A stretch of DNA of 64,000 nt from Natronomonas marina (GTDB taxonomy: Archaea; Halobacteriota; Halobacteria; Halobacteriales; Haloarculaceae), in contig NZ_CP101154.1 in the NCBI RefSeq assembly GCF_024298905.1, positions 2,356,001-2,420,000 of the forward strand. The letters run 5' to 3'. This document shows positions 3,718 through 6,763 of this stretch, one piece after another. Under the pieces are notes generated by a model. The model had not been told where the DNA came from. It made no database searches and worked only from the letters and a program-made list of their open reading frames with translations. How positions within the stretch are numbered: the stretch's first letter is position 1; every line of letters starts with the position of its first letter. The position numbers and the translations under genes are program-made.

Positions 3718-4266
3718 TCACACGAACACCTGCACGGTGTTGTCTTCCGATAGGTTACCCTCGATATTATCCTCCGATAGGTTGACTTCGATGGCTTCGT
3801 CTGCCGTGAGGGTCTCGTCGTCCTCCTCCGTCTCGACACGCACGACGTTATCTTCAGATAGGTTGCCCTCACTGGTGACGTCGTACTCTTCAGAGGCCTC
3901 GCGGGTCAGTGTCGGCTCGAAGACCTCCGTCACGGTACCGTCGGGGCCGATTTCGGCGACGACCTGTTCTTCGGCGTCGGGGGAGGGCGCGATGTGAACC
4001 TCGACCTGCTCGGTGCCTTTGACGACATCGAAGTGAACGTTATCGTCGTCGATGTATCTCTGCACCCGCTCGTTCGACCAGGCCGTCTGGATAGCTTCGT
4101 CGACTTCATCCGACGATATATCGCCGAACGGAGCGGTCACGTCGACGGTGTAGTCGTCGGGGGGCTGTTCTACTGCTGAGCTTCCGGAACCCGCACCTGC
4201 CGCGGCGATGCCACCAGTTATGGCGAGCATCGCGGCGAGTGCGAGCGCGAACAGTTTCCTGCGCAT
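3718..4266 (-). CDS. Secreted protein with PepSY-like core and NLSEDN repeats
   Basis: A 182-residue exported protein. Residues 1-25 are a signal peptide (Arg-Arg-Lys followed by an Ala/Leu-rich core). The central part, about residues 45-115, has the plan helix (Asp-Glu-Val-Asp-Glu-Ala-Ile) then beta strands ending in a Gly-Thr-Val-Thr-Glu-Val-Phe turn, like PepSY-type domains. The C-terminal 60 residues carry three copies of the hexapeptide NLSEDN, each an N-glycosylation sequon, in acidic sequence. The core resembles the protein encoded at 5119-5760, and a membrane winged-helix gene lies between them, so the three probably act together. Function unknown. A 7-bp inverted repeat (4274-4280 / 4296-4302) lies just upstream of the ATG. 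Confidence 0.75.
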   Translation of the reverse strand: MRRKLFALALAAMLAITGGIAAAGAGSGSSAVEQPPDDYTVDVTAPFGDISSDEVDEAIQTAWSNERVQRYIDDDNVHFDVVKGTEQVEVHIAPSPDAEEQVVAEIGPDGTVTEVFEPTLTREASEEYDVTSEGNLSEDNVVRVETEEDDETLTADEAIEVNLSEDNIEGNLSEDNTVQVFV

Positions 4267-4398
4267 CGCGTATCGGAGCGGCCCTCTCGGGGAATCGCTC
4301 CGGCCGGGGCTTGTGAGAAAACCCCCTTAGATACCCGTTGAGGAAGCGTTCGAAAGGAGGGAGGAAACTGTTTCGCGGAATCGGAGGTCGGGTTTCAC

Positions 4399-4974
4399 TT
4401 ACAGGAGCATGACTATGTTCCCCATCCCGCGGCGCTTGCGTTCGACGAGCTCCTTCGTCTCTAGGCTGTCGAGCGTCCGACTGACGGTCGCCTTCGAGCT
4501 GTCCGTCGCGTCGACGATGTCACTTTGGGCTATCACGCCGTCCGCGTCGAGGATTATCTCGTAGACCTCGCGCTCGTTGTTGGCCAGACGCTGGGCCGTC
4601 TCCTCCCACTCCTGACGGCGGGCTTCGAGGAGTTCGTCGCTCGGGGTCGAACCGTCAGTCCCGTCCGCACGGCCGGGGGCGCCGTAGCCGTCGGACGACA
4701 GCCGATCTGTCGGAGGCGATTCGGTGTCGGCGTCCCCCCAGTCTGTGGTGGTCAGGTACGTCCCGCTCGCTCCGAGCAGGACCGCCGCAACGACGATGAC
4801 TGCCACGTCGCTGTACTGGAAGTATCCGCCGATTTCCGCGACTTCTGTTCCGTTCTCGCCGACAGATACCACGACCGGCGTCGGCGTGATCAACTGTACC
4901 GCGAGGACGAGCGTGGCGGCAACGAAGACGGCCGCAGCGAGGAGCGACTTGCTGTGGAGGGCCCGCAGGACCAT
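4399..4974 (-). CDS. Membrane-anchored winged-helix regulator
   Basis: A 191-residue protein with two transmembrane segments (about residues 10-30 and 55-73), a short outside loop containing an Asn-Gly-Thr sequon, a polar acidic linker, and a C-terminal winged helix (about residues 128-190). The recognition helix reads Ser-Ser-Lys-Ala-Thr-Val-Ser-Arg-Thr-Leu-Asp-Ser-Leu, and the wing is basic. Such haloarchaeal proteins are presumed one-component sensors that regulate while tethered to the membrane. It is divergent from the secreted-protein gene at 5119 across a region with a striking palindrome, and 132 bases upstream of the related secreted gene, so it is the likely local regulator. Confidence 0.8.
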   Translation of the reverse strand: MVLRALHSKSLLAAAVFVAATLVLAVQLITPTPVVVSVGENGTEVAEIGGYFQYSDVAVIVVAAVLLGASGTYLTTTDWGDADTESPPTDRLSSDGYGAPGRADGTDGSTPSDELLEARRQEWEETAQRLANNEREVYEIILDADGVIAQSDIVDATDSSKATVSRTLDSLETKELVERKRRGMGNIVMLL

Positions 4975-5035
4975 GGGTCGACGTTCCGGATCCGCCTCCT
5001 AATGTGCGTCGATATTGAGTCGACAAATCCGTCGT

Positions 5036-5094
5036 GAAACGGCTTGAAACGCCTTTGAAACACGTTTCGAACGAGTTTCATCACAGCGGTGATG
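5036..5094. promoter_or_regulatory. Helically phased GAAAC/GTTTC palindromic operator plus second dyad
   Basis: Between the divergent genes at 4399-4974 and 5119-5760. GAAAC occurs at 5036-5040, 5046-5050 and 5057-5061, and its complement GTTTC at 5064-5068 and 5075-5079. The inner four elements are exactly symmetric about position 5062.5 (GAAAC-N6-GAAAC-N2-GTTTC-N6-GTTTC) with 10-11 base spacing, one helix turn. A separate dyad TCATCAC (5078-5084) / GTGATGA (5089-5095) follows. This is the layout of a cooperative binding site for a dimeric winged-helix protein; the membrane regulator next to it is the obvious candidate. Confidence 0.65.
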
Positions 5095-5118
5095 AGGCCT
5101 TTCACCGAACAGTGTAAC

Positions 5119-5760
5119 ATGCGAGGCAAGCGGACACGCATCCTCCTGCTCGGAGTCCTAGCGGCGGTCGGCATCACGCTGGCGGGAGTAGGGGTCGCGC
5201 TCGGGATCGGGAACAGCAACACGGACGACGACCGGATAGCAGAGGTCAGCGTCGCGAGGACCAACCTAACAGTCTCCGACGGCGGGAACGACGTCGTGCT
5301 GATGGAGAACGTCTCGGAGACGAGCGATATCGAGATTGTCAAAAACCGAACGGAAATCACGGTCACGGAGCACGAATCGGACCCGTTGACACAGCGCGAA
5401 CGGGAGCGCGCAATCGAAATCGCCCGGAACAACGAGACGGTCGCCTCACACCTCGAAACGGTCGATGATCCGGATTTCACCGTCGACCCCGTCGAGAGGA
5501 TCGACGCTGAGGAGATGCGGACGACCACAGTCGAGTTCGATGTCGATGAGCTGAACCACACCGGAGATTCCGTTCTGGTCGGGAACGTCACGGTCGAGGA
5601 ATCCGACGATTCCGTCACGGTAGAGCGGGAGCCGTCCCACGTCGCCGACCGGGCGGTCGTCCGGATTAGCCCTGCCGACAGCGAAGAGGCGCAATACTCC
5701 GTCGGAGTCGATCTGACAAACAGGACCGTCACCCACGTCACCGACTGGGGGAACGTATAG
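5119..5760 (+). CDS. Exported sequon-rich protein, paralogue of the 3718 gene core
   Basis: A 213-residue protein with one N-terminal hydrophobic segment (about residues 6-30; Arg-Gly-Lys-Arg before it), acting as signal peptide or anchor. The rest is acidic and holds seven N-x-S/T sequons. The second half, with Arg-Glu-Arg-Ala-Ile-Glu-Ile-Ala-Arg-Asn-Asn then beta strands and Asn-Arg-Thr-Val-Thr-His-Val, follows the same plan as residues 45-115 of the protein at 3718-4266. ATG 5119 is chosen; an upstream in-frame ATG at 5092 would lie inside the dyad. Function unknown; inferred to be an extracytoplasmic partner of the neighbouring membrane regulator. Confidence 0.75.
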   Translation: MRGKRTRILLLGVLAAVGITLAGVGVALGIGNSNTDDDRIAEVSVARTNLTVSDGGNDVVLMENVSETSDIEIVKNRTEITVTEHESDPLTQRERERAIEIARNNETVASHLETVDDPDFTVDPVERIDAEEMRTTTVEFDVDELNHTGDSVLVGNVTVEESDDSVTVEREPSHVADRAVVRISPADSEEAQYSVGVDLTNRTVTHVTDWGNV

Positions 5761-5866: not shown

Positions 5867-6763
5867 TTACAACTCCGACTGGTCGGCGTGGGAGCGAACC
5901 CACAGTTCGCCGATGCGGGACAGCCGCGTCCGATAGGACTTGCCGTGTTCCTCCTGTTCGATGTAGCCCTTCCCGCCCGGTCCGAGGCGGTCGACGTTGT
6001 AGATGACCTTCGAGCGGAAGGAGTCGGTGTACTCCTCGCCCAGCTCGCGTGCCAGCGTCTGTGCGAGTTCCGAGACGGACTCGAACTCGCCGTGGTCGCC
6101 CAGCGTGAACAGGATGAGTTCCTCGAAGGGCTTGACGTTCGAGAAGGAGGCCACCGGGAGTTCGATGACGTGGCTGTCGCCGAACTTCTTTGCGCCGATG
6201 GTGGTGCCGCGCTCGTCGAACTCCGCGAGGAGTTCGCGGGCGACCTCCAGGTGCTCGGCGACGCGGTCGTCGTTGACGTCGCCCTCGAGGAGGTCGGCGA
6301 GCAGTTCGGTCTGGGCGCGCAGTTCCTCGGCGAGTTCGGTCTCGAGGTACTTCTCGGGGACCGTGTAGTAGGTGTGGATGCGGTCGCGGTCGCCCTCCCG
6401 TTCGACCATGATGGAGTGGGCCGCCGTGGCGAAGGCGAAGGAGACGGTCCGCGGCATCGCCGAGACGTTGACCCAGACGCCGCCGCCGCGGTCCAGTTCC
6501 GTGTTGACGAGGTCGTAGGCCTGCTCGAAGGCCGCGTCGTAGTCGTAGACGTCCTCGACGACGACCCGCTCGGTCTCGGCGCCCAGCAGGTTCGTGAAAT
6601 CCTGGTCCAGTTTCTCCGCCAGCCGCCGGGAGTACTCGACGTTGGCCTCGCTGCCGACGGCGCCCTCCAGGAGGACGACCCGGTCGACATCTAGCTGGTC
6701 CCTGACCAGCGGCGCGATGAGCCGGTCGTAATCGAACCCGACCGGGACGATGTGGGTCTGCAT
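5867..6763 (-). CDS. DUF6293 (HFX_2341) family CARF-like transcriptional regulator
   Basis: A 298-residue protein. The first 150 residues form a Rossmann-like fold starting with His-Ile-Val-Pro-Val-Gly-Phe-Asp-Tyr-Asp and including Val-Trp-Val-Asn-Val-Ser-Ala-Met-Pro-Arg; the last 100 residues form a winged-helix domain (Phe-Arg-Ser-Lys-Val-Ile-Tyr-Asn-Val-Asp-Arg-Leu-Gly recognition region) ending with a hydrophobic tail. This domain order matches haloarchaeal DUF6293 proteins, which are related to Csa3-type CARF regulators that sense cyclic oligonucleotides. No CRISPR array or cas gene lies in the window, so the ligand and regulon are unknown. It follows its own promoter in a 57-base gap. 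Confidence 0.78.
   Translation of the reverse strand: MQTHIVPVGFDYDRLIAPLVRDQLDVDRVVLLEGAVGSEANVEYSRRLAEKLDQDFTNLLGAETERVVVEDVYDYDAAFEQAYDLVNTELDRGGGVWVNVSAMPRTVSFAFATAAHSIMVEREGDRDRIHTYYTVPEKYLETELAEELRAQTELLADLLEGDVNDDRVAEHLEVARELLAEFDERGTTIGAKKFGDSHVIELPVASFSNVKPFEELILFTLGDHGEFESVSELAQTLARELGEEYTDSFRSKVIYNVDRLGPGGKGYIEQEEHGKSYRTRLSRIGELWVRSHADQSEL

Follow-up and report, generated by a model that had tools for sequence, protein, structure and literature searches.

A conserved haloarchaeal cassette of a membrane-tethered DUF7343 regulator and exported PepSY-like proteins: a candidate extracytoplasmic signaling system

Sensing at or outside the cell surface is poorly known in archaea, of whose membrane-tethered regulators only a few have been studied. 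A 64,000-nucleotide stretch of Natronomonas marina (contig NZ_CP101154.1, positions 2,356,001 to 2,420,000), referred to here as the window, holds three neighboring genes that bear on this subject. The original prediction, made from the letters of the window, described a membrane-bound winged-helix protein lying between two related exported proteins, and proposed that the exported proteins act on the outside of the regulator. The three reading frames, which we call A, R, and B, are present on the strands and in the places described (Table 1). Do these genes form a working unit, and if so, of what kind? We think it rather probable that R, B, and, where present, A make up a self-contained extracytoplasmic signaling cassette, i.e., a self-regulated one-component regulator with its partners. 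Gene linkage, domain architecture, the kinship of the A and B cores, and an operator that is conserved and nearly unique in the genome support this reading, as follows.

Table 1. Features of the A-R-B locus (window coordinates)
Feature	Coordinates	Strand	Basis and remarks
A, exported protein	3718-4266	-	182 aa; ORF, family alignments, AlphaFold model
Hairpin in the 5' leader of A, GGAGCG...CGCTCC (A sense)	4275-4302	-	Sequence; 8 nt before the start codon
Candidate R operator preceding A, GAAACTGTTTC	4364-4374		One of 8 GAAACN{0,3}GTTTC sites in the genome
Further GTTTC box upstream of A	4392-4396
R, membrane-tethered regulator	4399-4974	-	191 aa; ORF, Pfam PF24034 (47 bits), family alignments
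Candidate operator array between R and B	5036-5079		Conserved in haloarchaeal loci, near-unique in genome
GAAAC boxes of the array	5036-5040, 5046-5050, 5057-5061
Core palindrome of the array, GAAACACGTTTC	5057-5068
GTTTC boxes of the array	5064-5068, 5075-5079
Core-promoter-like element, GGnCTTTC type	5095-5104	+	Common to A and B promoters; putative role
B, exported or N-terminally anchored protein	5119-5760	+	213 aa; ORF, alignments, AlphaFold model; alternative GTG start at 5089 gives 223 aa

R carries a winged helix at its C-terminal end. Residues 131-190 match DUF7343 (PF24034) with a score of 47 bits, where the gathering cut-off is 27.6, and the MarR_2 model also scores above its cut-off, at 31 bits. 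The recognition helix, SKATVSRTLDSLE, is nearly invariant in the family alignments. N-terminal to this domain, two hydrophobic segments flank a predicted outside loop of about 25 residues, PTPVVVSVGENGTEVAEIGGYF. Both segments are kept across R proteins, as judged from the alignments rather than by a dedicated topology predictor. The description of the middle protein as having two membrane helixes and a cytoplasmic winged helix is thus borne out by the DUF7343 score and the two hydrophobic segments: R is a predicted two-helix membrane protein with its N- and C-terminal ends and its winged helix inside. It shows both marks of one-component transmembrane regulators, namely a DNA-binding domain and at least one hydrophobic membrane segment in the same chain, and a profile scan of R found no kinase or receiver domain.

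A and B both have hydrophobic N-termini. In A, the signal peptide is followed by one PepSY/cystatin-like core, at residues ~36-120, and an acidic tail modeled at low confidence. B begins with N-terminal β-hairpins (residues 42-85), which precede a core resembling PepSY and amine-oxidase N domains (residues 86-213). The AlphaFold model of A reaches a pLDDT of ~85-96 over its core, residues 33-123; that of B reaches ~85-97 in residues 91-130 and 171-213, with an insert at 131-170 of low confidence. Because BLASTP aligned the signal peptides of A and B and nothing further, family profiles were needed to compare them. These profiles align over the core with 95-96% probability and E values from 1.7e-8 to 3.6e-9, while a control pairing of R with A gave 1.7%. 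The two models also share an order of elements: a strand, a helix of 13 residues, a helix of 6 or 7, and strands. The proposal that A and B share a plan is therefore upheld by profiles and models alike, and the outcome that the original prediction named as fatal to it, unrelated folds in the two exported proteins, did not occur. The same prediction called both proteins rich in N-glycosylation sequons. That holds for B, which has seven (shuffle p 0.003), and not clearly for A, which has three (p 0.08). The C-terminal tail of A (window 3718-3865) contains three copies of NLSEDN, each a potential N-glycosylation site; the exact repeat is absent from the relatives of A in the alignment.

What fold do these cores have? 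The top structural matches of the models are the N-terminal domains (N2/N3) of copper amine oxidases, with a Z of 9.0 (rmsd 3.1 over 83 residues) for B and 6.8 (rmsd 2.4 over 65) for A. PepSY-type structures follow. For B these are YpmB (Z 5.7), the Clostridium lipoprotein 4exr (Z 5.5), and the vibriolysin propeptide (Z 4.9); for A they are UipA (Z 6.2, rmsd 3.0 over 61) and the fungalysin propeptide (Z 4.9), all values in a range where common arrangements score too. The ToxR and ToxRS structures appear among the matches of A at Z 4.2-4.5 only, and the PepSY/amine-oxidase N-domain structures match best. Foldseek against the PDB gave no match at E 0.001 for either model; the best match of A, at 0.014, was to ribosome hibernation factors, which we took as a common α/β arrangement. 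Sequence-profile matches to PDB entries were likewise set aside as marginal or chance, e.g., a minor capsid protein A1 fusion matching 29 residues of B at E 7e-4. Neither A nor B scores above cut-off against any Pfam or NCBIfam model. In particular, the Pfam PepSY profile, PF03413, matches neither A, B, nor the family members scanned; it matches none of 10 distant B-like proteins at E 0.5, and finds nothing over its cut-off in the Natronomonas marina genome. Membership of A and B in PF03413 was therefore rejected for want of a profile match. We describe the modeled core as PepSY-like, on account of its fold, without assigning it to PepSY. The cores resemble those of copper amine oxidase N2/N3, UipA, YpmB, and thermolysin-type propeptides in model comparison, with no detectable sequence relationship, and a common fold of this kind shows no function.

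R and B point away from each other across a gap of 144 bases, and A lies downstream of R after a gap of 132 bases. Because B diverges from R and A has a gap of its own, the three do not form one transcription unit. Their association across genomes is strong. R occurs in 38 and B in 39 of the 146 genomes of the family, and 37 have both (Fisher 5e-31); A occurs in 17, of which 15 also have R (Fisher 1e-8). In all 40 R copies checked in the family, B lies within 200 bp. Of 53 loci from named genomes, 46 have B when the threshold is E 1e-20, and 36 have A at a threshold of E 1e-3. The commonest order is that of the window, with B and R divergent and A after R; Haloarcula, Halomicrobium, and some Halorubrum have B and R co-directional without A. 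The distance matrices of R and B correlate (r 0.78), as do those of R and A (r 0.72), a result that shared vertical descent alone would also give. Co-occurrence and adjacency of the three genes across haloarchaea, the neighborhood check that the original prediction had set for itself, were thus found, and the cassette is real. A is its less frequent third member, missing from many cassettes and not essential to the circuit.

Some loci depart from this layout. Several Natrinema and Halopiger genomes (L096, L097, L098, L101, L107, and L123) encode an A homologue of 430-515 residues with three or four tandem core domains, and a Natrialba genome (L127) has a shorter form of 304 residues. In Halorussus amylolyticus (L108) and Halorientalis regularis (L130), two A-like genes or pieces lie near R; the Halorientalis regularis pair is possibly an interrupted A. 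Adjoining B in the window, at 5867-6763, is a transcriptional regulator of the HFX_2341 family (NCBIfam, 582 bits), which also matches the model of the CRISPR-associated CARF protein Csa3, below cut-off.

If R acts at this locus, its binding site should be found there. The sequence between R and B contains an array of GAAAC and GTTTC boxes, the core of which is GAAAC-GC-GTTTC with flanking boxes at a spacing of ~11 bp. A common design is seen upstream of B, TGAAAC-n5-TGAAACGCGTTTC-n6-GTTTC. At 45 of 47 haloarchaeal loci, B has the palindrome, with at least 9 of 10 positions, ahead of it; a Markov null gives 0.8 such loci and a maximum of 5 in 500 simulations. The exact palindrome occurs in 27 of the 47 (null 0.04) and the 11-bp tandem boxes in 41 (null 0.13). 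These loci are related by descent, so that the simulations overstate their independence; yet R identity among them falls below 50%, and much of the other intergenic sequence varies. Whether B is divergent from R or co-directional with it, the operator stays upstream of B.

The sites are also nearly confined to this locus. The strict palindrome GAAACN{0,3}GTTTC occurs eight times in the genome of 3.99 Mb: two are at the cassette and six are inside predicted ORFs. The full array is found at the cassette and at one weaker site only. A wider regulon in the genome was considered and rejected, as predicted ORFs contain the remaining strict palindromes and tandem boxes. Control by R of its own locus is the simplest interpretation. 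Upstream of A, the regions average 1.9 boxes where 0.65 are expected. The GGnCTTTC element is present in 34 of the 39 A-upstream regions (null 3.5) and in 15 of the 30 divergent B-upstream regions (null 1.9), as against 3 of the 30 R-upstream regions (null 2.1). The operator boxes that the A and B promoters have in common add support to a single predicted regulatory circuit. The leaders of A tend to fold into stable hairpins just before the start codon, of sequences that differ between genera: the folding energies of A leaders have a mean z of -1.9, with 17 of 39 below -2, as compared with 0.04 and 0 of 30 upstream of R and 9 of 30 upstream of B.

We propose the following sequence of events. 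R would sit in the membrane as a one-component transcription regulator that exposes a short hairpin-like loop to the outside. From there B and, in second place, A would act on this loop or on the transmembrane helixes and so set the activity of R. Dimers of R are predicted to bind, on one face of the DNA, the GAAAC-nn-GTTTC palindrome together with the boxes next to it, and R at the operator would then control the promoters of B, A, and probably R itself. Once outside the cell, newly synthesized B and A would report back to R, closing a feedback loop. Both the binding of R to the operator and the contact of B and A with R are steps that we infer. Activation by R appears somewhat more likely than repression, because the array abuts the weak core promoter of B. 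Chief among the candidate signals are a perturbation of the cell surface and a surface ligand; envelope stress, the signal named in the original prediction, is plausible as one reasonable candidate.

Systems of comparable design are known in bacteria. Co-component regulators of the ToxR/ToxS type consist of a transmembrane regulator and an extracytoplasmic partner (PMC10269533). ToxR/ToxS, TcpP/TcpH, and VtrA/VtrC resemble R in that a membrane-tethered DNA-binding protein is encoded next to its extracytoplasmic partner: B stands beside R in the family, and an exported PepSY-like neighbor is present at many distant R loci. They differ from R in that R has two helixes, a loop of ~25 residues, and a C-terminal DUF7343 winged helix, and is found in archaea. 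In addition, the candidate partners of R look more PepSY-like than lipocalin-like in their models, the lipocalin-like fold being common in such systems but not strictly defining; they are possibly two in number, and their contact with R is a proposal. A second comparison is with DbfQRS of Vibrio cholerae. DbfQ is a small PepSY protein, encoded beside dbfRS, which binds the outside domain of the DbfS sensor; the pathway responds to membrane damage and autoregulates (PMC12714742). In DbfQRS and similar modules, as proposed here, a small exported PepSY-type protein is encoded beside the membrane sensor it controls; there are sometimes two PepSY proteins, sometimes on the opposite strand, and the module autoregulates. 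The differences are that a single membrane-tethered R takes the place of the histidine kinase and response regulator, and that A and B have no Pfam PepSY match. No histidine kinase/response regulator pair of the DbfQRS kind lies beside A or B; the response regulator at 603-1274 is 2.4 kb from A.

Among archaeal proteins, the closest in description are ArnR and ArnR1 of Sulfolobus acidocaldarius, which, like R, are membrane-bound one-component regulators with a helix-turn-helix. ArnR differs in having no listed exported partner (PMC10269533) and an N-terminal HTH (PMC13286277). The DUF7343 family, in which the winged helix of R falls well above cut-off, has a Pfam entry that gives no function, partners, or operator. 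A search of the literature on DUF7343, COG2512, haloarchaeal PepSY proteins, and the GTTTC operator found no description of the cassette. It is apparently undescribed in the literature searched, with which the novelty first claimed for it agrees, but the general principle, in which a transmembrane regulator has an extracytoplasmic partner or a PepSY protein modulates the sensor next to it, is already known from bacteria.

How far does the pairing extend? With the R profile, relatives turn up in 56 of 295 genomes of the phylum, Halobacteriota. Many of these genomes lie outside the order of Natronomonas, non-haloarchaeal ones among them, and R usually has an exported PepSY-like neighbor there. 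At eight of these distant loci (L169, L175, L177, L179, L180, L181, L183, and L184), the gene directly upstream of R on the same strand encodes an exported protein that contains between one and three PepSY-like repeats. An exported PepSY-like gene also lies directly upstream of R in metagenome-assembled genomes (MAGs) labeled Diapherotrites (L131) and Altiarchaeales (L134), labels that may be wrong. A profile of six distant upstream proteins matches that of B at 97% and E 2e-10, in an alignment that includes the signal region and is weaker than that of A with B. The sequence GAAACCAGTTTC is found upstream of the pair in L131 and L169, both distant from haloarchaea; no operator site was found upstream of the pairs in L134, L175, L177, L179, L180, L181, L183, and L184. 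Four distant R copies (L170, L171, L174, and L178) have no clear PepSY-like neighbor in the sequence examined, and in L174 the sequence upstream of R resembles a broken or unlisted PepSY-like gene. In the MAG labeled Diapherotrites (L131:1410-5258), genes for a permease, a large surface protein, and the ATPase of an ABC transporter come directly after the R pair; at this locus they may be what is regulated.

The main rival explanation is that R is an ordinary local regulator that senses the membrane through its helixes, and that A and B are effectors, e.g., protease inhibitors, metal binders, or surface proteins, that make no contact with R. The outside loop of R speaks for it: ~25 residues is small for a protein-protein sensor surface, which counts against the co-component reading. 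Further, it has been suggested that transmembrane regulators poor in sensory domains sense the membrane (PMC10269533), PepSY domains have been tied to protease inhibition and metal binding (PMC12714742), and the operator data fit this explanation equally well. The linkage, however, survives changes of gene order and persists in very distant archaea, with PepSY-like partners that vary in size and domain number, and a pure target gene need not remain adjacent over such distances. We regard a purely local regulator as unlikely, though the most serious of the alternatives.

The distribution of the cassette suggests a second explanation, a mobile or selfish addiction-like module whose exported proteins act on neighboring cells while R sets dosage only. 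The cassette is patchily spread, being present in 4 of 20 genomes of its own genus and in one copy on a plasmid (L104), and fast-evolving secreted proteins of archaeal dark-matter islands have been proposed to serve in conflicts (PMC4158269). Yet neither A nor B has a toxin-like, nuclease, or immunity domain above cut-off, B and R are tightly co-inherited, and the same pair recurs in distant lineages, which makes such a module improbable. That the genes are unrelated neighbors, their common features due to chance or haloarchaeal composition, is most improbable and is refuted by the data: single-sequence searches do stop at the signal peptides, and acidic haloarchaeal proteins can resemble each other, but the co-occurrence, the conserved adjacency, the agreement of profiles and folds, and the operator all stand against it.

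The signaling cassette that we prefer to these alternatives comprises three definite genes and a predicted DNA target, and it can be tested in culturable haloarchaea. A profile finds it in distant archaea as well. It is possible, and we put it forward tentatively, that DUF7343 membrane regulators and exported PepSY-like co-components, with an operator GAAACnnGTTTC found from haloarchaea to MAGs labeled Diapherotrites, constitute a pan-archaeal class of signaling systems for cell-surface sensing with self-contained feedback. If the cassette works as proposed, exported PepSY-type proteins would modulate archaeal membrane sensors in the manner of the bacterial DbfQ, with a one-component regulator in place of the kinase. 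This suggests a previously undescribed way in which archaea may sense events at the cell surface.
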